From the NCBI GenBank assembly GCA_022750115.1, contig JAKIWI010000002.1, positions 4,268 to 68,267 on the forward strand: a stretch of 64,000 nucleotides of DNA. Reading direction: 5' to 3'. This document shows, piece by piece, positions 25,166-34,541 of the stretch; position 1 is the first letter of the stretch, and each line of letters begins with the position of its first letter. The position numbers and the translations under genes are program-made. The notes under the pieces are model-generated. The model did no database searches. It had not been told where the DNA came from and was given only the letters and a program-made list of their open reading frames with translations. The DNA is from Thermoplasmata archaeon. Lineage in GTDB: Archaea > Thermoplasmatota > Thermoplasmata > Lutacidiplasmatales > UBA184.

Positions 25166-26758
25166 CTAGTCGCGCATCGGGATCGTCGGCATCGGCAGCC
25201 GGTCCGGGTACCGCATCGGATCTTCGAGCCGGTGCGGCGGGTGCGTCGGCTCGCTCCAGAGGCCGTTCATCCGGCTGAGCGTCTCGAGGAACCCGATGAA
25301 ACCGCGGAACGTCGCGCGGTAGGCCGTGGTGTGGCGGCCCTCCCAGTCGAAGAAGTCACGGAGCAACGACTTCGATTGCCGGAGGCCGTGCGTGAGCGCG
25401 CGGCGGAACAGCTCCTGCTGCACGTCGCTCATCCGGTCACGGCGGAACCAGTCCTTGTTCTTCAGGTGCCCGAGCGGCACGAAGAACATCGGCACGAGGA
25501 TCGCCTTGAAGTCCCACAGATTGTCGATGAGCTCGATCGTCCGCAGGACGTCGTCCTCCGTCTCTTGCGGGAGGCCGACGATGAACGTGCAGGCGGGGTA
25601 GACCTTGTTGTCGTTCATCAGGCCCGCCGCCTGGACGACGAGCTCCGGCCACTGCGACGCCTTGAACGGGGCGACCTTGCCGGGCATCGCCGCGGTGATC
25701 ATCCGAGGGCTGCCGGTCTCCACGCCGACCTCGACGCCCCACCAGTCCTGCTTCTCGTCGAGCAGGATCTCGCCGCATTGGCTCAGGAGTTTCGGCTTGG
25801 TCATCAGCGAGGCGATCGCGACGTGGCTCCAGCCGACCTGGTCGTAGTGCTTCTTCGCGAGCTTGAGGAGCGGGAGGAGCTTGTCCTCGCGGGGCATCAC
25901 GTTCGGGCTGCCGTAGAAGTAGACATCATCGGAGTGAAGGAGGCCTTTCTTGATGCCGATCTTAGCGTTGACCTTGAGCTCCGCTTCGATCTTCTCGAGC
26001 GGGTACCACCGGGTGGGCCGGGTCGTGACGGAGCAGAACGAACAACCCCGGCAGCAGCCGCGGCCGATCTCGACGAGCCCGTTGACGCTCGGGTAGCGGA
26101 TGGTCGAGATCTGCTCGACCTTCGGGGCCTCCTTTGCGGACAGGACGACGTGGGGCGGGAGGAACTCGTCCGCCAGCGCTTTGCGGACCAGCTCAGGGAC
26201 GTAGACGTCCGCCTCGCCCTCCACGACCGAGTCGATGCCGCCGATCGAGGCGACGAACTCGCCGATCCACGGCAGTTTCATCTGGGTCGCGGGGGACAGC
26301 TGCCAGGCGCACGGACCGCCGGCGATGAGCCGCATCCCCTGCTTGCGGGCCTCGAGGACGGCGGGCTGGCTGAGCATCCGCTTGAAGTTCACGCAGTTGA
26401 GCGGCTCCTTCCCCATGACGCCGCCGAACGTCGAGCTCGGCGGGTTGAGTCCGAAGTAGTCGTGCCCCGAGACGAGGAGGACTTTCGCTTTCCCCGGCAT
26501 GTAGCGGTCCAGGTAGCTGGGATGGACGATCCGAGCATCGAACCCGGCGTCCATGAGGGACGCCTCGACCTTGCGCATCCCATACGGGGCCTGCTTGGGG
26601 TACCCGTTCGCGTCGACCTCCATCGTGGGGTAGAACAGGCGCTGGTAGACCGCCTCCGGGAAGATGTAGGCGGGAGTCGTGGTGCCGAACCCGAGGAACT
26701 CCTTCCCGTGATGATTGCTCATCAGGGTCCAGTCGCACGTCAGCACGACCTCGGGCAT
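25166..26758 (-). CDS. radical SAM protein with N-terminal B12-binding-like domain
   Basis: About 530 residues. The first ~200 form a Rossmann-like domain resembling the cobalamin-binding part of B12-dependent radical SAM proteins, without an obvious DxHxxG motif. The radical SAM cluster ligands are Cys235, Cys239 and Cys242 (CCRGCSFC), followed by a TIM-barrel core (GVEVGVETGSPRM, FIVGLPQETEDD) and a C-terminal helical part. It resembles uncharacterised archaeal radical SAM families known from Thermoplasma. Start ATG 26758 is chosen because ggtgg lies upstream, the same context as the next gene. The substrate is unknown. Confidence 0.88.
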   Translation of the reverse strand: MPEVVLTCDWTLMSNHHGKEFLGFGTTTPAYIFPEAVYQRLFYPTMEVDANGYPKQAPYGMRKVEASLMDAGFDARIVHPSYLDRYMPGKAKVLLVSGHDYFGLNPPSSTFGGVMGKEPLNCVNFKRMLSQPAVLEARKQGMRLIAGGPCAWQLSPATQMKLPWIGEFVASIGGIDSVVEGEADVYVPELVRKALADEFLPPHVVLSAKEAPKVEQISTIRYPSVNGLVEIGRGCCRGCSFCSVTTRPTRWYPLEKIEAELKVNAKIGIKKGLLHSDDVYFYGSPNVMPREDKLLPLLKLAKKHYDQVGWSHVAIASLMTKPKLLSQCGEILLDEKQDWWGVEVGVETGSPRMITAAMPGKVAPFKASQWPELVVQAAGLMNDNKVYPACTFIVGLPQETEDDVLRTIELIDNLWDFKAILVPMFFVPLGHLKNKDWFRRDRMSDVQQELFRRALTHGLRQSKSLLRDFFDWEGRHTTAYRATFRGFIGFLETLSRMNGLWSEPTHPPHRLEDPMRYPDRLPMPTIPMRD

Positions 26759-26956
26759 CGATTCCACCCCCACACCACGCGGCGCGGCTCAGGACGCGCG
26801 ACGGTGCCCCGGTTCTTAGTAGTTGCGTTTCGCGCGGCGCCGTCGACGAAGGCCTCCCGAGGATCGGTGCTTTCCCCCGTGTCCCGGGCCCCTAGGTTCG
26901 ACCTCGGGGGGCCCGTCGGCGGCCCACCGAGGTTGCCGCAAGTCTCGCGCCGACGG

Positions 26957-28981
26957 TTACCGCAGGAGCCAGGTGTCGTCCAACTGGTTCCTCCCCGCGT
27001 CCGTCCCTCCGAACAGGACGATGGCGCCGAGGCCGGGATCGTAAACCATCCCTCCACCGCTCCTCGCCGCGGGCGAGGGAACAAAGTGGCGCTGCTTCCA
27101 ACTCGAGCCGTTCCAGGCCCACGTGTCGCGGAGCGGGGTGCCGGGCGAACTCGCACCTCCAAACAGATAGCAGACGGAGCGGTTCGGGTCACACGCGATC
27201 CGAGCGGCGGCCCGCGCGGGCGGCGTCGCGCCACTCGGCGCGGCCGAGGTCCAGTTGCCCCCATGGAACGTCCACGTGTCGTTCAGGTACACCCCGTTTC
27301 CGGCGTCGCCGCCGAAGAGGAGCACGACATTTCCCACCGCGTCGTAGCTCATCGCGCTCAGGCTGCGGGCGGACGGAGACGAGCCCGACGGCGACAACTG
27401 GGTCCATGCGCCTTTGGAGAACGCCCAGGTGTCCGCGAAATGATTTGGGTAACTGTAGCCCCCGAACAGGACGACGTAGCCGTCCGCCGCGTCGTAGGTC
27501 ATCATTCCCCCGTAGCGAGCGCCCGGGGATGTGGCCGGGGCGACCGCGGTCCAAACTCCGCCGCGGTACGTCCACGTGTCCCCCGAAGGCCCGACCGAGG
27601 TGAGCCCCCCGAACAGGACGACCTCCTGGTCCTTGGCGTCGTACGCCATCATGGTGGCTCCGCGGGGCGACGGCGCCGCGCTCGTCGGGATCTCCTGCCA
27701 TCCGGCCGAGCCGTACGCCCAGGTCGAATTCGAGATCTCGCCGGCCGAGCGGTACCCGCCGAAGAACAGCGCGTACCCGTCCCGCGCATCGTAGGCGGTC
27801 CCCGCCCCCGACCCGCCCGCCGGATCGACGACGCGAGTCCAACCGTGCAAACCCAGCTCCCACGTGTCGCGGAAGTGGCTCGGGTACTGATAGCCGCCGA
27901 ACAGGACGCTCGCGCCGATGGCCGCGTCGTACGTCATCGCATCGCCGTAGCGGGCCGGAGGGGTCTTGGGCGAGGAGACGCGCGTCCAGCTTCCGTGGGC
28001 GAAGGCCCAGGTGTCGCCACTCCCGCCGGAGCCGGGGGTGCCCCCGAATACGACGACCCGCCCTCCCGCCGCATCGAACGCCGCACCGGCGCTCCAGCGC
28101 GCCGTCGGGGAGGGCCCGCCCGGAACGAGGGCCGTCCACGTGCCGTTCGCGAACCGCCAGGTGTCGCCGAGGGCGCCGGTCGCCCCGTCCCCGCCGAACA
28201 TCAGGAGTCCGTGTTGCCCCGGGTCGTTCACCAACACCATCGACGATCGAGCCGAAGGGGCCGATGCGAGCGAAAGCCGCGCCCAATGGCCGGCAGCGAA
28301 GGTCCAGGTGTCGTTGAGGAGGGTCCCGTTCGGTCCCGAGCCGCCGAACAGAACGACCGTTCCCGTCGAGGAGTCGTAGGCGAGGCCCAGCCCGACACGG
28401 GGCGAGGGCGCGGGGCTCGTGACAACCTGGCTCCACATCCCCGAAGCGTACGTCCAGGTGTCGTTGAGACGGGTGCCCGAACTGGCCGCGCCGCCGAAGA
28501 GGACGGTCTGCCCCCGGACGACGTCGAAGGCGAGCCCGTAGGCCGCCCGGGCGGACGGGGCACCGTTCGTCGCCACGGAGCTCCAGTTCGCGCCATCGAA
28601 CAACCAGGTGTCGTTCAGGTAGACCCCGGCCCCCGCATCTCCGCCGAAGGCGAGGATGTGCCCGGTCCCAGACGGGTCGTAGGCGAGGTGCAGGAGGCTC
28701 CGGGGGGTGGGGGACGCGGGGGTAACGTCGGACCAGCGCGCTGGGGGGGGAGCGGCCGGTACCAGGCCCGTCCCAATCACCGCGGAGGGGAGTTTCGAAG
28801 TCATCATCGAGTGTGCCAGCGGGCCGGGTACCGCCATCGTCACGGCCGTGGGTACGACGAGAAGGGCGACCACGACCGCGCTCGAAAACGCGGCGCGGTG
28901 GAGCCAGCGCGCCGATCGCTCGGCCACCGCTCGCGCAAGGGGGCCCCGTGCCGGATTGCGGGTCGTTCCGGATTCGGGCAT
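26957..28981 (-). CDS. exported Kelch-repeat protein with 12 blades
   Basis: A 674-residue exported protein. A hydrophobic segment (~33-52, AAFSSAVVVALLVVPTAVTM) is the signal or anchor. The rest is 12 Kelch repeats, each with an FGG strand and a (N)DTW strand followed by xxW, enough for two six-bladed propellers. Many blades place an NDT sequon at the same spot. No C-terminal membrane helix is seen, unlike its two neighbours. Likely binds carbohydrate or protein at the cell surface (inference). The paralogues begin on the opposite strand at 29516 and 32027. Confidence 0.9.
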   Translation of the reverse strand: MPESGTTRNPARGPLARAVAERSARWLHRAAFSSAVVVALLVVPTAVTMAVPGPLAHSMMTSKLPSAVIGTGLVPAAPPPARWSDVTPASPTPRSLLHLAYDPSGTGHILAFGGDAGAGVYLNDTWLFDGANWSSVATNGAPSARAAYGLAFDVVRGQTVLFGGAASSGTRLNDTWTYASGMWSQVVTSPAPSPRVGLGLAYDSSTGTVVLFGGSGPNGTLLNDTWTFAAGHWARLSLASAPSARSSMVLVNDPGQHGLLMFGGDGATGALGDTWRFANGTWTALVPGGPSPTARWSAGAAFDAAGGRVVVFGGTPGSGGSGDTWAFAHGSWTRVSSPKTPPARYGDAMTYDAAIGASVLFGGYQYPSHFRDTWELGLHGWTRVVDPAGGSGAGTAYDARDGYALFFGGYRSAGEISNSTWAYGSAGWQEIPTSAAPSPRGATMMAYDAKDQEVVLFGGLTSVGPSGDTWTYRGGVWTAVAPATSPGARYGGMMTYDAADGYVVLFGGYSYPNHFADTWAFSKGAWTQLSPSGSSPSARSLSAMSYDAVGNVVLLFGGDAGNGVYLNDTWTFHGGNWTSAAPSGATPPARAAARIACDPNRSVCYLFGGASSPGTPLRDTWAWNGSSWKQRHFVPSPAARSGGGMVYDPGLGAIVLFGGTDAGRNQLDDTWLLR

Positions 28982-29019
28982 CGATTCCACCCTCGCGCCC
29001 GCAGGCGGAGGACGCGCAG

Positions 29020-29358: not shown

Positions 29359-29515
29359 TCGGGCCACCCCGCAAGTAGATTTCGGGCGACCCGAGCCCGC
29401 GAGAGACATGGGTTGGCCCGCCACCGACAGCACCGGCCACCGCGCTCGGCTCCTTTCGAAAAAACGTGGAAAGGCTGAAAGCCCGGAAGCGTTTGCGGGG
29501 CCCTCCGTGGGTTCG

Positions 29516-31945
29516 ATGCGGAGAGAATGGTCTCACCTCGCCCGCGGGAACGTCGTACCGCTCCTCGGCACCGTACTCCTCGTCACCGTACTTCTGGGCG
29601 CGAATGCGTCGGCAATCCCGTCCCGGCCGACGGGGATTCCGGGCGCGGGAACCGCGGTCCGCGCCGCTCTCGGAGTCGCTCCGCCGGGCTGGGTGACGCT
29701 GCCGGTCTCGGGGTCTCTCCCGCCGACGCGAGTGGCTCCGGCCATGGCGTACGACGCTGTCCTGAACGAATCGATCCTGTTCGGCGGCCATCTCGTGGGT
29801 CAGTCGAACGACTACAACGATACCTGGGCGCTCCGGGGGGAGACCTGGACGAACCTGGGCGCGAGCCTCCCGCTGTCGCCCCCGGGACGTTCCGGCGCCA
29901 AGATGGTCTGGGACGCGGCGGACAGCGAGATCGTGTTGTTCGGCGGGTACAACTCGAGCACCGGAGCGTTCTACAACGACACTTGGATCTTCGCTGCCGG
30001 ACACTGGAGCCAGGACGTCGTCGCCATCGCGCCCCCGCCTCGGAACTGGGAGGCGTTCGGCTGGGACAGCCAGGCCAGCTCGGCGGTCATGTACGGAGGA
30101 GCGAACAGCACGTCGGCGCTGAATGATACCTGGCTGTTCGTCGGCGGAACCTGGACCCGCGGGAACCCCGCGACGGTGCCGGGGCCGCTTGCATATGCGG
30201 CGGCGGCCGACGACCCGGCCGATCACGGGTTCGTCATGTTCGGAGGATCGCCCTCGCCCTCGTCCTCGAGCCCGGTCAACACGACCTGGGTGTACTCGTC
30301 TTCCAACTGGCTCCTCGTCCGAGGCCCAGCTCCCGGTGCCCGAACGAGCGGGGACATCGCGTGGGATCCAGCGCGCAGCGCGGACCTCTTGGCGGGCGGG
30401 TACAACGGCAGCACGTCCACCTACGACGGCGACACCTGGGAGCTCAATGCGTCGGGCTGGTCCCAACTCGTCCCGTCGATTGCCTTCCCCGCCCGAGGCG
30501 CATCGGGCGGCGCGTACGACGCCGCCTCGGCCCGCGTGGAATTCTTCGGCGGGGCAACCGCGGGCTCGGACCTGGACACGACCCAGGCGTTCGACGAATT
30601 GCAGGCTCGAATCACCGACAACGCGTCCTCCGGGATGTCGCCGCTGAAGGTGCAGTTCGGATCGATCGAGACGGCCGGCGTTCCGAATTACACCTACAGC
30701 TGGTCGTTCGCGGACGGCTCTTTCTCCTCGGCGGCCGCGCCGTCGCACACCTTCACCACGCAGGGGACGTACGACGTCCGAGTGAACGTGACCGATGCGG
30801 GCGGCATCGTGGCGGGCGCGAACACGACCGTCCGCGCCTCGGCTGCGCTCCTATCGGCGAGCGTTTCGGCGACCCCGGCGACGGGGACGGCTCCACTCCG
30901 CGTGACCCTGCACGACTCCGTCGCCGGCGGCGCCGCGCCCTACAACGTGACCTGGTCGTTCGGAGACGGCTCCACGGGGTACGGCGTGTGGGCGAACCAC
31001 ACCTTCGTCTCTTCCGGAACGTATGTCGTGAACGCCACGGCGCGCGACTCCGCCTCGGGCCTGAAGGTCTCCTCCACCACCGTCACGGTCTCCGCGGCCG
31101 CCGTCCCATTCACCGCCTCGATCTCGTTGAGCCCCGTGTCGGGGTTCGCTCCGCTGAACGTATCCCTGCGGGCCTCGACGAGCGGGGGCGTCGGGGCGGA
31201 CGTCGCCACCTGGGCCTTCGGCGACGGCGCCACTGGGACCGGGCTCGCGGCCACGCACTTGTACAGCGCGGCGGGGAACTACACGGTCGCCTTGACGGTC
31301 CGCGACTCGGCGGGTCACACCGCATATGCGAACCAAACCATCGAGGTCCATGCGAGCACGCCGGTAACCGAGTGCGTCGGGTCGGGCTGCCTCTCGCCCC
31401 TCGACTCGCTGGGCATCATCGTCGGGATCGCGATCCTCGCGGGCGCCGTAATCGTGCTCGCGTGGCGCCGACGCTCGCCCCGAGACGGCCCGCCAACCCC
31501 GCCGTCAGCCCAGCCCGCCGACCACGCTCCCGCGCATTTCGGTCCCGGGGCCGTCCCGGGGCCTGCCGGTCTGCCTGCCTCGCTCGCCGGGGCCGAGATC
31601 GCGAGCGAGCCCTTGGCCGGCAGCGCGGGGAGTCCCGACACCGCGGAGTCCGACGCCGCAGGAGCGACGCTCTCGAACCAGATTCTGGTTCACCTGCTCC
31701 GCCAAGGGCGCAGTGACCCTGGCGCCCCCAACCTCCCTGGGCTGACCCAGGACGGGATCGCGGGGGGCCTGGGACGACCCCAAGCGTCGTTCGTTCGTTC
31801 CCTGCAGCGGCTCGAAAAGTCGGGGTACGTGGTGAGCCGGACCGACCACGTTTCGGGTCGCGCTCGGCGGGTCAAAGTCTACGAGCTGACCCCCCGCGGG
31901 GAATCGGCCGCTCGGCGATTGTTCGGCGAATTCGCGGGCCGCTAA
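29516..31945 (+). CDS. Kelch-PKD-transmembrane-winged helix protein, putative membrane-spanning one-component regulator
   Basis: An 809-residue protein joining surface and DNA-binding modules. In order: signal peptide (~10-35); six Kelch repeats (~75-355); three PKD domains (~361-441, 442-525, 526-612) with the SFxDG/FGDG cores; a single membrane helix (~630-650, GIIVGIAILAGAVIVLAW) followed by RRR; a Pro/Ala-rich linker; and a C-terminal winged helix (~717-809) with LTQDGIAGGLGRPQASFVR as helix-turn-helix and RVKVYELTPRGE as wing. The RRR stop-transfer places the winged helix in the cytoplasm. Ligand and targets are unknown. Start ATG 29516; the frame is open far upstream, but only as a shadow of minus-strand genes. 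Confidence 0.87.
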   Translation: MRREWSHLARGNVVPLLGTVLLVTVLLGANASAIPSRPTGIPGAGTAVRAALGVAPPGWVTLPVSGSLPPTRVAPAMAYDAVLNESILFGGHLVGQSNDYNDTWALRGETWTNLGASLPLSPPGRSGAKMVWDAADSEIVLFGGYNSSTGAFYNDTWIFAAGHWSQDVVAIAPPPRNWEAFGWDSQASSAVMYGGANSTSALNDTWLFVGGTWTRGNPATVPGPLAYAAAADDPADHGFVMFGGSPSPSSSSPVNTTWVYSSSNWLLVRGPAPGARTSGDIAWDPARSADLLAGGYNGSTSTYDGDTWELNASGWSQLVPSIAFPARGASGGAYDAASARVEFFGGATAGSDLDTTQAFDELQARITDNASSGMSPLKVQFGSIETAGVPNYTYSWSFADGSFSSAAAPSHTFTTQGTYDVRVNVTDAGGIVAGANTTVRASAALLSASVSATPATGTAPLRVTLHDSVAGGAAPYNVTWSFGDGSTGYGVWANHTFVSSGTYVVNATARDSASGLKVSSTTVTVSAAAVPFTASISLSPVSGFAPLNVSLRASTSGGVGADVATWAFGDGATGTGLAATHLYSAAGNYTVALTVRDSAGHTAYANQTIEVHASTPVTECVGSGCLSPLDSLGIIVGIAILAGAVIVLAWRRRSPRDGPPTPPSAQPADHAPAHFGPGAVPGPAGLPASLAGAEIASEPLAGSAGSPDTAESDAAGATLSNQILVHLLRQGRSDPGAPNLPGLTQDGIAGGLGRPQASFVRSLQRLEKSGYVVSRTDHVSGRARRVKVYELTPRGESAARRLFGEFAGR

Positions 31946-31964: not shown

Positions 31965-31978
31965 CTCGCATATGCGAG
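31965..31978. promoter_or_regulatory. 14-bp perfect palindrome, candidate operator
   Basis: ctcgcatatgcgag lies between the Kelch-winged helix gene and the next Kelch gene, 18 nt upstream of that gene's TATA-like element. A partial half-site, tatgcgggc, lies just before it. The position is right for a regulator contact site; perfect 14-mers of this kind are not rare by chance in DNA of this composition. Confidence 0.4.
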
Positions 31979-31996: not shown

Positions 31997-32006
31997 CCTT
32001 TTATCC
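31997..32006 (+). promoter_or_regulatory. TATA-like element of the third Kelch gene
   Basis: ccttttatcc, 21-30 nt before ATG 32027, the layout of a leaderless archaeal promoter. Confidence 0.6.
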
Positions 32007-32026
32007 TCCCGACAGCCCAAGCTCCG

Positions 32027-33862
32027 ATGTCGCCCGCTCCCTCGGAACTGCGCCCGATTCGAGAGTCGCCGATCCGCCTGACGAACGTCGCGACAATCGC
32101 CGCCGTCGTCGCGGTCGCCCTCCTGCTGCAGGTCTCACCGAACCTCCTCGGGATCCCGGAGGGAGGCCCGGCCGTCGCCGGCGCGGGTGCGGCCCGTGCC
32201 GTTCGAGGCGAGGTGGAGTCCGCGGTGTCGTCGCTCGCTCACGGGGCCGGCCCCGCCGCCGGTCACGCCGTCTCCTGCGCGGCCACCGGGGCGGCCGCGC
32301 GCTGCGGCGCGTCGAACGTCTCGGGCTGGACCAACCTCACGGCCGGTCTCCAAGCCTCGCCGTCCTGTCGCGGTGACGCGGGGATGGTCTACGACCCGGC
32401 GATCCAGAAAGTCGTGCTGTTCGGCGGCTGGGGATACTGCGGCTGGTACCAGGTCGAGCTGCTCAATGACACCTGGACGTTTGGGAACGGGACCTGGACG
32501 AACATCACGACCTCCGTCGGAGTCGCACCCCCGGCCCGCTGGGACGGGGGCATGGCCTGGGACGCCGCGGACCAGGAGATCGTCCTGTTCGGCGGTTGGA
32601 CGCTCAATGGTACGATGCTCAACGACACCTGGACCTACTCGTCGGGGGCCTGGACGCAGGTCCCGACGACCCTCGCGCCCTCGACCCGGCATGGTCCGGG
32701 GTTCGCGTACGACTCCACCGACCACGAGGTCGTCCTCTTCGGCGGAAGCCCGTGGATGGGCTCCGGCACATTCCTGAATGACACCTGGACGTTCCGCGCG
32801 GGCACCTGGAACTCGGTCTCGGGGGCCGGCGGGGTCGCGCCGTCGCCGCGCCGCATGCCGATGATGGCCGACGACCCCGCCGCTGGCGGCGCCGTGCTGT
32901 TCGGGGGCGTCGACCCGGGCTTCGGCGCGTTCTCCGACACCTGGCTGTTCCACAACGGCACCTGGAGCCGCCTCGTGCCGACGGCCTCGCCGCCCGCGCG
33001 GTTCGACTCCTCGCTCTCGTACGACCCGAACATCGGCGGTCTCCTCCTCTTCGGGGGTTGCTTCTCCCAGGGGTGCATCGTCCACGAGAACGACACCTGG
33101 GCGTTCGCGAACGGGACGTGGACGAACGTCTCCGCGCAACTGCCCGCAGGCCCATCGCCGCGGGGCGCGGCGGGGTTCACCTACGACCCGCTCGCCCACG
33201 CGCAGCTGTTGTTCGGCGGCTCGGACGGCGGTCATCACAACGACACCTGGCTTCTCGGCGCGGCGGGATTGGTCCTGTCGAATGGGTCGGGCCATTCGAC
33301 CCCAAACGGCTCCGGCGGGCTCGGGGTCGTCCTGAACCTCACACCGTGGAACGGAACCGCTCCGCTCGCGGTCCAGTTCACGGCCCACGTCGTGCCCGCG
33401 AACATCTCGGTCCGCGCCACCTGGTCATTCGGCGACGGCGGGAACGGCACGGGACTCGCGATGAATCACACCTACACGACGGCGGGATCCTTTCTCGCGG
33501 CCGTCACGGTGACGGAGGCGAACGGCAGTTCGGCCACCGCGTCGGCCACCATCCTGGTGACGCCCGCCGTCTCGGGCGGCGGGGGCGGCTCCTCCGGTGG
33601 CGGTACCTCGAGCGGTGGCGGCAACCGGGCCGGCGCGAACAACTCGAGCGGGAGCTCGGGCAAGGGAAGCGGCACGCTGGCCCCTCCGGCGCCTCCCGCG
33701 GGCGACGGGGCTCGGACGGCGGGAGGGAGCGCGAGCCTCGCGCTCGCCGGTCCGCCGGGTCTCGTGCCGGCGCTCTGGCTCACCGTGATTACCCTCGGGG
33801 TCGCCGTGGGCGCGCTCGGGACGAACACGTTCCTCCAGTGGCGCGACCGGCGGCGGGGCTGA
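32027..33862 (+). CDS. membrane-anchored Kelch-PKD surface protein
   Basis: A 611-residue surface protein. N-terminal membrane segment ~22-44 (VATIAAVVAVALLLQV), six Kelch repeats (~95-415) with NDTW sequons in most blades, one PKD domain (~430-510, TWSFGDGGNGTG), a Gly/Ser linker (~515-545) and a C-terminal helix (~577-602) ending in basic residues. It resembles the upstream gene without the cytoplasmic winged helix. The start is ATG 32027, next to a TATA element. Confidence 0.88.
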   Translation: MSPAPSELRPIRESPIRLTNVATIAAVVAVALLLQVSPNLLGIPEGGPAVAGAGAARAVRGEVESAVSSLAHGAGPAAGHAVSCAATGAAARCGASNVSGWTNLTAGLQASPSCRGDAGMVYDPAIQKVVLFGGWGYCGWYQVELLNDTWTFGNGTWTNITTSVGVAPPARWDGGMAWDAADQEIVLFGGWTLNGTMLNDTWTYSSGAWTQVPTTLAPSTRHGPGFAYDSTDHEVVLFGGSPWMGSGTFLNDTWTFRAGTWNSVSGAGGVAPSPRRMPMMADDPAAGGAVLFGGVDPGFGAFSDTWLFHNGTWSRLVPTASPPARFDSSLSYDPNIGGLLLFGGCFSQGCIVHENDTWAFANGTWTNVSAQLPAGPSPRGAAGFTYDPLAHAQLLFGGSDGGHHNDTWLLGAAGLVLSNGSGHSTPNGSGGLGVVLNLTPWNGTAPLAVQFTAHVVPANISVRATWSFGDGGNGTGLAMNHTYTTAGSFLAAVTVTEANGSSATASATILVTPAVSGGGGGSSGGGTSSGGGNRAGANNSSGSSGKGSGTLAPPAPPAGDGARTAGGSASLALAGPPGLVPALWLTVITLGVAVGALGTNTFLQWRDRRRG

Positions 33863-33953: not shown

Positions 33954-34541
33954 GTGGACGCGCTGGCGGAGATTCGCAAGCGGCGTCTCTCGCTCGGGAT
34001 CCCCCTCGGCGAGCTCGCGCGCGCGGTAGGCCGGAGCGACGCGACCCTCAGTCGCATCGAGCGCGGCCAGATCCGGCCATCGTACGAGCTCGTCCAGCAG
34101 ATCGATTCCTACCTCGCGGCGCACGAGGGTGTCGCGGCCCCCCACCTGCGGGCGCGCGACGTCGTGGTCGCGAGTTTGGTGACCGTGGAGGGCGGCGCGA
34201 CGCTCGCCGACGCCGCGCAAACGATGGAAAAGGGGGGCTTCTCTCAGCTTCCGGTCTCCGACGCCGGTCGAGTGACCGGCTCCGTCTCGGAGACAGGTTT
34301 GCTCCGGGCGCTCGCCCGGTCGAACGGCCAGCGCCTGCGGGTGCGCGAGGTCCAGGAGGGCTCCTACCCGCAGGTCGATATCGAGTGTCCCGCCGACGTT
34401 CTCGCCGGCCTGTTGACCCGGTACCCGGCGGTACTCGTTTCCGAGCGGGGCGCGTTGGTGGGGATCGTGACGAAAACCGACCTCATCCGCGGCCTCCGCG
34501 GGACCCCCCTTCGACGAGTCGGGGCGTCGCGCGGCGGTTAG
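33954..34541 (+). CDS. HTH (XRE-type) regulator with tandem CBS domains
   Basis: 195 residues. The first ~60 form a Cro/CI-type helix-turn-helix (LGIPLGELARAVGRSDATLSRIERG). Residues ~68-185 form a CBS pair (LVTVEGGATLADAAQTM; LVGIVTKTDLIRGL), which in this family senses adenine nucleotides or similar ligands. This layout is widespread in Archaea. GTG 33954 has a TATA-like cgcccttaac about 24-33 nt upstream, so the mRNA is probably leaderless. Its 3' end overlaps the convergent S58 peptidase gene by 59 bp. Confidence 0.9.
   Translation: MDALAEIRKRRLSLGIPLGELARAVGRSDATLSRIERGQIRPSYELVQQIDSYLAAHEGVAAPHLRARDVVVASLVTVEGGATLADAAQTMEKGGFSQLPVSDAGRVTGSVSETGLLRALARSNGQRLRVREVQEGSYPQVDIECPADVLAGLLTRYPAVLVSERGALVGIVTKTDLIRGLRGTPLRRVGASRGG

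Follow-up and report, generated by a model that had tools for sequence, protein, structure and literature searches.

Transmembrane transcription regulators (TTRs) carry a DNA-binding domain and at least one transmembrane (TM) region in the same chain and are predicted to act from the membrane. According to the main text of their census, which covers bacteria and archaea, single-pass proteins are the commonest type (PMC10269533). The 64,000-nucleotide stretch of DNA analyzed here (the window, to which all positions refer) encodes a single-pass protein of this layout, with a DNA-binding domain predicted from Pfam, profile, and fold and a TM region in the same chain; by the definition in the census main text, the putative regulator is a TTR and hence of a known kind (PMC10269533). 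It differs from the proteins described there in the C-terminal position of its MarR/PadR-type domain, in its large Kelch/PKD ectodomain, and in its local operator candidate, and the main text of the census contains no Thermoplasma-type names and mentions neither Kelch nor PKD (PMC10269533).

ToxR/ToxS, TcpP/TcpH, and VtrA/VtrC are co-component systems, in which a tethered winged-helix regulator is paired with a membrane partner encoded by an adjacent, often overlapping gene (PMC9214523). The two-gene form of the family described below follows the same logic. In the ToxR/ToxS-type systems, the HTH domain is N-terminal and the partner adds a periplasmic domain, lipocalin-like in VtrC (PMC9214523), whereas the regulators described here have a C-terminal winged helix, their partner, a large Kelch/PKD surface protein with a conserved cytoplasmic tail, is encoded upstream, and a fused version occurs as well. 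Instead of the N-terminal winged helix that precedes the TM region in ToxR- and CadC-like proteins, we find a C-terminal, MarR/PadR-like domain, and we found no sign of homology between the two-gene form and the co-component systems.

Among archaea, ArnR and ArnR1 of Sulfolobus acidocaldarius are membrane-bound one-component regulators of cell-surface structures (PMC6396743). They resemble the window's regulator in being archaeal and membrane bound and in their link to surface structures, but they act at archaellum and pilus promoters rather than on an adjacent Kelch gene (PMC6396743). PadR and MarR/SlyA share with it the fold, the long C-terminal helix, and the positions of the recognition helix and the wing; they are soluble, however, whereas the domain found here ends a membrane protein and its Pfam scores lie below the cut-offs. 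ArnR and ArnR1 differ from the window's regulator in domain order and DNA-binding family as well. In the open-licence literature on Kelch/PKD and winged-helix proteins in archaea, we came across neither the Kelch/PKD-TM-winged-helix combination nor the cassette, and the family is apparently undescribed. The novelty lies in the ectodomain, in the placement of a MarR/PadR-like domain at the C terminus, in a partner whose cytoplasmic tail is conserved, and in the operator match. The initial annotation knew of membrane-tethered regulators, though of no described family with this domain order; tethered regulators as such have been described, in archaea too (PMC6396743 and, in its main text, PMC10269533).

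Architecture and topology of the putative regulator

The regulator gene is a single forward-strand frame without interruption from the ATG at 29516 to the stop at 31945 (809 codons plus stop), and the order of its domains, all on the same strand, follows from the ORF, Pfam, and an AlphaFold model of the 809-residue product. A signal peptide (29516..29611; RR...VVPLLGTVLLVTVLLGANASA), recognized in the sequence and modeled as a helix at residues 17 to 28, is followed by six Kelch repeats (29687..30604) that form one propeller according to Pfam, the repeat positions, the model, and Foldseek. The repeats start at residues 72, 125, 176, 225, 276, and 327 and score above the Pfam cut-off (E 6e-22; 78.5 bits against 50), as do the three PKD domains (30602..31351; residues 363-442, 447-526, and 533-612), which match PKD_4 in three stretches (E 8e-36; 122 bits against 27) and also appear in the model. 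A single TM helix (residues 631-650) with an RRR stop-transfer (651-653) occupies 31406..31474, placed by its position and by the model. Beyond it come a Pro/Ala-rich disordered cytoplasmic linker of about 62 residues (31475..31660; model pLDDT below 50 at 643-716) and a MarR/PadR-type winged helix (31661..31942), assigned from Pfam, profile, and models. The full-length AlphaFold model shows a beta-propeller at residues 59-360, PKD-like sandwiches, a TM helix at 632-650, disorder at 651-717, and a winged helix at 719-808. Foldseek likens the propeller to the solved Kelch domains of KLHDC2, NS1-BP, and LZTR1 (target TM-score about 0.7-0.82). With its domains above cut-off, a signal peptide, a TM anchor, and N-glycosylation sequons, the protein has the features of a Kelch/PKD surface protein.

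All available signs in the sequence place the segment that follows the TM helix in the cytoplasm. The regulator has 19 N-glycosylation sequons in its ectodomain and 0 in the cytoplasmic segment, and K+R residues make up 3.7% of the chain before the TM helix and 11.9% after it. The same split is seen across 38 family proteins, with 253 sequons outside against 7 inside and 2.6% K+R against 13.2%. R651 and R652 are invariant in the orthologues.

The winged helix falls short of the Pfam gathering cut-off of 27 bits for both PadR (PF03551; E 6.5e-5, 23.3 bits) and MarR_2 (PF12802; E 0.007, 17 bits), and its PDB profile matches are to PadR Rv3488 (1.2e-6) and SlyA (1.9e-5). Modeled alone, it reaches a pLDDT of 94.9, resembles MarR/PadR structures, and displays two helices, the recognition helix (domain residues 42-55), a two-strand wing, and a long C-terminal helix. 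The recognition helix (approximately 31781-31822), which contains RPQASF, and the wing (approximately 31829-31888) correspond to the elements that touch DNA in MarR/PadR complexes. T744, Q745, Q756, R765, H778, R784, and R785 are invariant among the orthologues.

The Kelch-PKD-TM-winged-helix architecture of ORF 29516-31945 is thereby confirmed. The initial annotation had read six Kelch repeats, three PKD domains, one membrane helix with RRR, and a winged helix in one chain, and the ORF, Pfam, and AlphaFold agree with it throughout, the model reproducing propeller, PKD domains, TM helix, and winged helix. Its winged-helix prediction withstood the sequence-profile and fold comparisons, and its placing of the C-terminal segment inside the cell is borne out by the sequon split and the rise in K+R.

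Forms of the family and their partner genes

The source genome (2.1 Mb, 27 contigs) was surveyed by pattern and profile searches for all genome-wide counts, and all the genomes compared appear to be MAGs. A scan of named genomes with a 4-row profile yielded six loci. The same domain order is present in G088, G048, G060, G380, and G041, with a 5'-truncated copy at a contig end in G076. All six genomes belong to the source's family, Ca. Lutacidiplasmatales, and G380 (isolate AcS4-93, JAKIWD010000018.1) is of the same genus as the source. AcS4-93 is listed in Ca. Lutacidiplasmatales, acid-soil Thermoplasmatota with no cultured representative reported (Sheridan et al., PMC9287336). Since the architecture recurs in six further genomes of the family, it is the product of neither chance nor misassembly.

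The TM-linker-winged-helix module is more widespread than the fused protein, with 7 copies in the source genome and presence in 68 of 101 family genomes; in about 66 sampled loci, it occurs with PKD domains or without an ectodomain. We distinguish a fused form B (Kelch6-PKD-TM-winged helix; 7 loci, including the source and the truncated copy in G076), a form A with a signal peptide, one or two PKD domains, a TM helix, and the winged helix (33 loci), a form C with a short N-terminal TM helix, linker, and winged helix (33 loci), and a form D comprising AAA/TPR-type proteins with the same winged helix and no TM helix (10 loci). The AAA/TPR-looking proteins (L047, L057, L059, L060, and others) carry the winged helix at either the N or the C terminus and are likely a STAND-type regulator group sharing the DNA-binding domain. 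A winged-helix tree, built from only 98 columns and with many forks open, separates nearly all of A and C from B and most of D with strong support. It nests the form B protein of G041 (L082) within form A, and the fused domain order therefore probably arose at least twice. The winged helix itself is phylum-wide (159 of 293 genomes), and we rejected the idea of a phylum-wide membrane module: of the winged helices at 16 loci sampled from outside the family, most are N-terminal and most belong to proteins without a TM helix, and none is encoded beside a Kelch/PKD gene.

The single-chain form is a minority, the usual arrangement being two genes, one for a surface protein (S) and one for a TM-winged-helix protein (R). 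The unusual single chain that the initial annotation had singled out is real, but it does not stand alone: a lineage-wide family includes it as one of several forms. Loci were chosen by winged-helix similarity, with neighbors playing no part in the choice, and were scored where enough sequence was available. A Kelch/PKD gene lies directly upstream on the same strand in 29/31 loci of form A and 24/32 of form C, so that in 53 of 63 scorable loci regulator and membrane partner are adjacent in an apparent operon, as in co-component systems. None of the 10 soluble form D genes has such a neighbor (Fisher p 3e-7 against A/C).

The upstream S proteins end in a TM helix and a short cytoplasmic tail with the consensus RREGExLVREL, and a profile of this tail, built from 23 sequences of the S kind, matches 44 of 54 upstream partners. 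In the source genome, which encodes dozens of PKD/Kelch proteins, only five tail matches fall below 1e-5, all in S genes beside regulators; one of these genes (C5:260016) lies outside the training set of the profile.

The fused form is arranged differently, its neighbor lying downstream with a promoter candidate of its own. A Kelch gene directly follows the fused regulator in 7/7 loci, only one of six form B loci has a Kelch/PKD gene upstream, and the downstream Kelch genes with a visible C terminus lack the tail motif. Because Kelch genes are abundant and clustered in the source genome, this downstream linkage is weaker evidence than the upstream linkage of S. The same wiring seems to have been achieved in two ways, one fused and one split.

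In the window, the likely target of the regulator is the Kelch-PKD-TM gene directly downstream (32027..33862, forward strand; Pfam), whose product ends ...FLQWRDRRRG. Of the set compared, this product best matches the regulator's Kelch domain (34% over 409 aa), and the two Kelch domains are related. At other loci, the best match is not consistently the partner from the same locus, and the proposal that Kelch domains of a locus evolve together found no consistent support. Directly upstream, on the reverse strand, a divergent gene (26957..28990; Pfam) encodes a Kelch protein with no winged helix and with 12 repeats, which probably form two propellers; it is possibly a member of the same surface cluster. 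Farther out, we noted by Pfam a radical SAM protein of 535 aa (25166-26773, reverse strand) and, just past the Kelch-PKD gene, an HTH-CBS domain regulator (33954-34541, forward strand; HTH_31 and two CBS).

Operator candidates and their co-variation with the winged helix

Between the regulator stop (31945) and the start of the downstream Kelch gene (32027) lies a 12-bp perfect palindrome, TCGCATATGCGA (31966..31977), about 25-27 bp upstream of a TATA-box candidate, TTTTATCCT (31999..32007, forward strand). The latter, found in a consensus scan with an in-frame start, precedes the downstream ATG by 28 nt. We regard the palindrome as an operator candidate. It has no other exact copy in the 2.1-Mb genome, and its core CGCATATGC occurs at three sites genome-wide, the intergenic one and two inside the regulator gene, which were located by pattern search (GCATATGCG at 30191..30199 and CGCATATGCG at 31321..31330). 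Both in-gene copies read as the codons GCA TAT GCG (Ala-Tyr-Ala), and they may reflect looping, a roadblock, or coincidence. The region of the regulator gene's own promoter (29400-29515) contains no such operator. That TCGCATATGCGA is a common palindrome of a GC-rich genome was considered and rejected, since all three CGCATATGC sites are at the regulator gene and the relatives' loci contain 7 CATATG sites in 458 kb. By our estimate, at this GC content the presence of a 12-bp palindrome within an 81-bp gap carries no significance of its own; the weight of the operator assignment lies on its recurrence in other species and on co-variation. The element was first spotted by eye and tested afterwards.

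Operator-like elements are found in the promoter adjoining most cassettes. In L051 (G080) and L052 (G048), GCATATGC, which the window's locus shares, stands at the corresponding place before the neighboring Kelch-PKD gene and is followed, at the same spacing, by CAT-N3-TGCG. The regulators of these two loci have RPQSAF in the helix where the window's has RPQASF; the winged helices are 43-49% identical, and the ectodomains differ. Between the regulator and the Kelch gene, L048 and L054 have GCAT-CT-ATGC, and L049, L050, and L145 have CCGTACGG-type palindromes; the element of L082 is GTGTATACAC. In forms A and C, the element precedes S, as does CGAATATATCCGG in four related cassettes, the perfect copy of which is unique in the source genome. 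Repeated GGCGTATCTCCG-like elements stand before the TATA box in L090, L120, L130, L131, L080, and L126, whose linked regulators share a Q-N/S-x-L-T/S-NVL recognition helix, and on sequence grounds they are a second clear class of putative operators. L081 and L116 have the common QNALTNVL helix, but the called promoter lacks a matching GGCGTATC element, through either a promoter miscall or a real exception.

Promoters were called by a simple, heuristic TATA rule in 30 of 57 loci. Across 29 loci with a called promoter, the more identical two winged helices were, the more alike were the 55-bp stretches preceding the TATA box (Mantel r 0.52, p 2e-4). Because shared ancestry inflates Mantel tests in general, two control windows from the same loci were used, and these gave r 0.10 (p 0.055) and r 0.06 (p 0.15). 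The correlation persisted in a set thinned to winged helices less than 70% identical (n=22; r 0.39, p 2e-4). Along the winged helix, the partial correlation is highest at the recognition helix (0.38) and second highest at the wing (0.29), and the contribution of the recognition helix given the rest of the domain has a permutation p of 3e-4. This co-variation is the strongest evidence that the linked regulator would read the linked operator.

A probable membrane-tethered regulator and its alternatives

We consider it probable that the protein is tethered in the membrane and regulates the neighboring surface gene locally through its predicted DNA binding. Its Kelch-PKD ectodomain would face outward, and its ligand might be a polymer, a neighboring cell, or a surface protein of the Kelch type resembling its own target. 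The MarR/PadR-like winged helix would be held inside by the single TM helix and the flexible linker of about 62 residues, and there it may bind, presumably as a dimer, the short palindrome just upstream of the adjacent Kelch gene's TATA box. The bound regulator would then control that gene locally. Archaeal activators usually bind upstream of the BRE/TATA region, where the form B site is found, and for this reason activation is somewhat more likely than repression. A membrane-tethered, surface-facing regulator, as first annotated, is the best-supported reading; that the ectodomain senses by binding is something we infer.

In the two-gene form, S (Kelch/PKD-TM with a short tail) and R (TM-linker-winged helix, with two PKD domains or none) would be two distinct proteins, apparently encoded in a single operon. 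R would act on the operator preceding S and may contact S directly. For the cassettes as a whole, we see about an even chance that they make up an expanded signaling system from outside to DNA, that the tail of a Kelch/PKD sensor couples within the membrane to a tethered regulator, that each cassette has a private operator which its regulator's recognition helix reads, and that the single-chain version evolved at least twice.

Within the tethered reading, the regulator may serve homeostatic feedback, its ectodomain sensing the amount or assembly of the neighboring Kelch surface protein and adjusting the corresponding gene. We hold this only tentatively: the regulator's Kelch domain is kin to that of its downstream target, and R of the two-gene form probably targets S, which is itself the sensor, but the inconsistent Kelch matches of the other loci speak against it. 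Regulated proteolysis, in which the ectodomain controls cleavage near the TM helix and the freed winged helix of this membrane-stored factor diffuses to the operator, strikes us as unlikely. The single TM helix, the long disordered linker, and the small stable C-terminal domain would suit it, and no sequence feature requires DNA binding from the membrane, but a non-systematic look saw neither a protease gene nor a conserved cleavage motif linked to the cassettes. The adjacency of the targets suits binding near the site of synthesis, although it does not decide the matter.

It is still less probable that a different, soluble regulator reads the operator and that the winged helix, through contacts with protein or nonspecific DNA, ties the chromosome to the membrane. 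The family does include soluble AAA/TPR proteins with this winged helix, and the linkage and operator evidence is correlative; against this stand the uniqueness of the operator site in the genome and the way in which operator sequences track the recognition helix of the linked regulator. The least credible reading by far is that a chance fusion gave a structural surface protein a winged helix without function. The architecture is patchy in the family, with probably at least two origins (L082 being nested among the PKD forms), but seven winged-helix residues between T744 and R785 are invariant in the orthologues, the module has been recruited repeatedly, and the operator co-varies with the winged helix.

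How archaea transfer surface contact to the chromosome is largely an open question. The tethered regulators described here would offer a minimal case, in which a sensor, a membrane helix, and a DNA-binding domain come with a candidate target and a candidate operator, in both split and fused versions. They also provide a functional lead for some of the numerous Kelch/PKD proteins on the surface of soil archaea that have not been cultured. Finally, the dozens of regulator-operator pairs may constitute a natural recognition-helix-to-operator code, testable in vitro without culturing.
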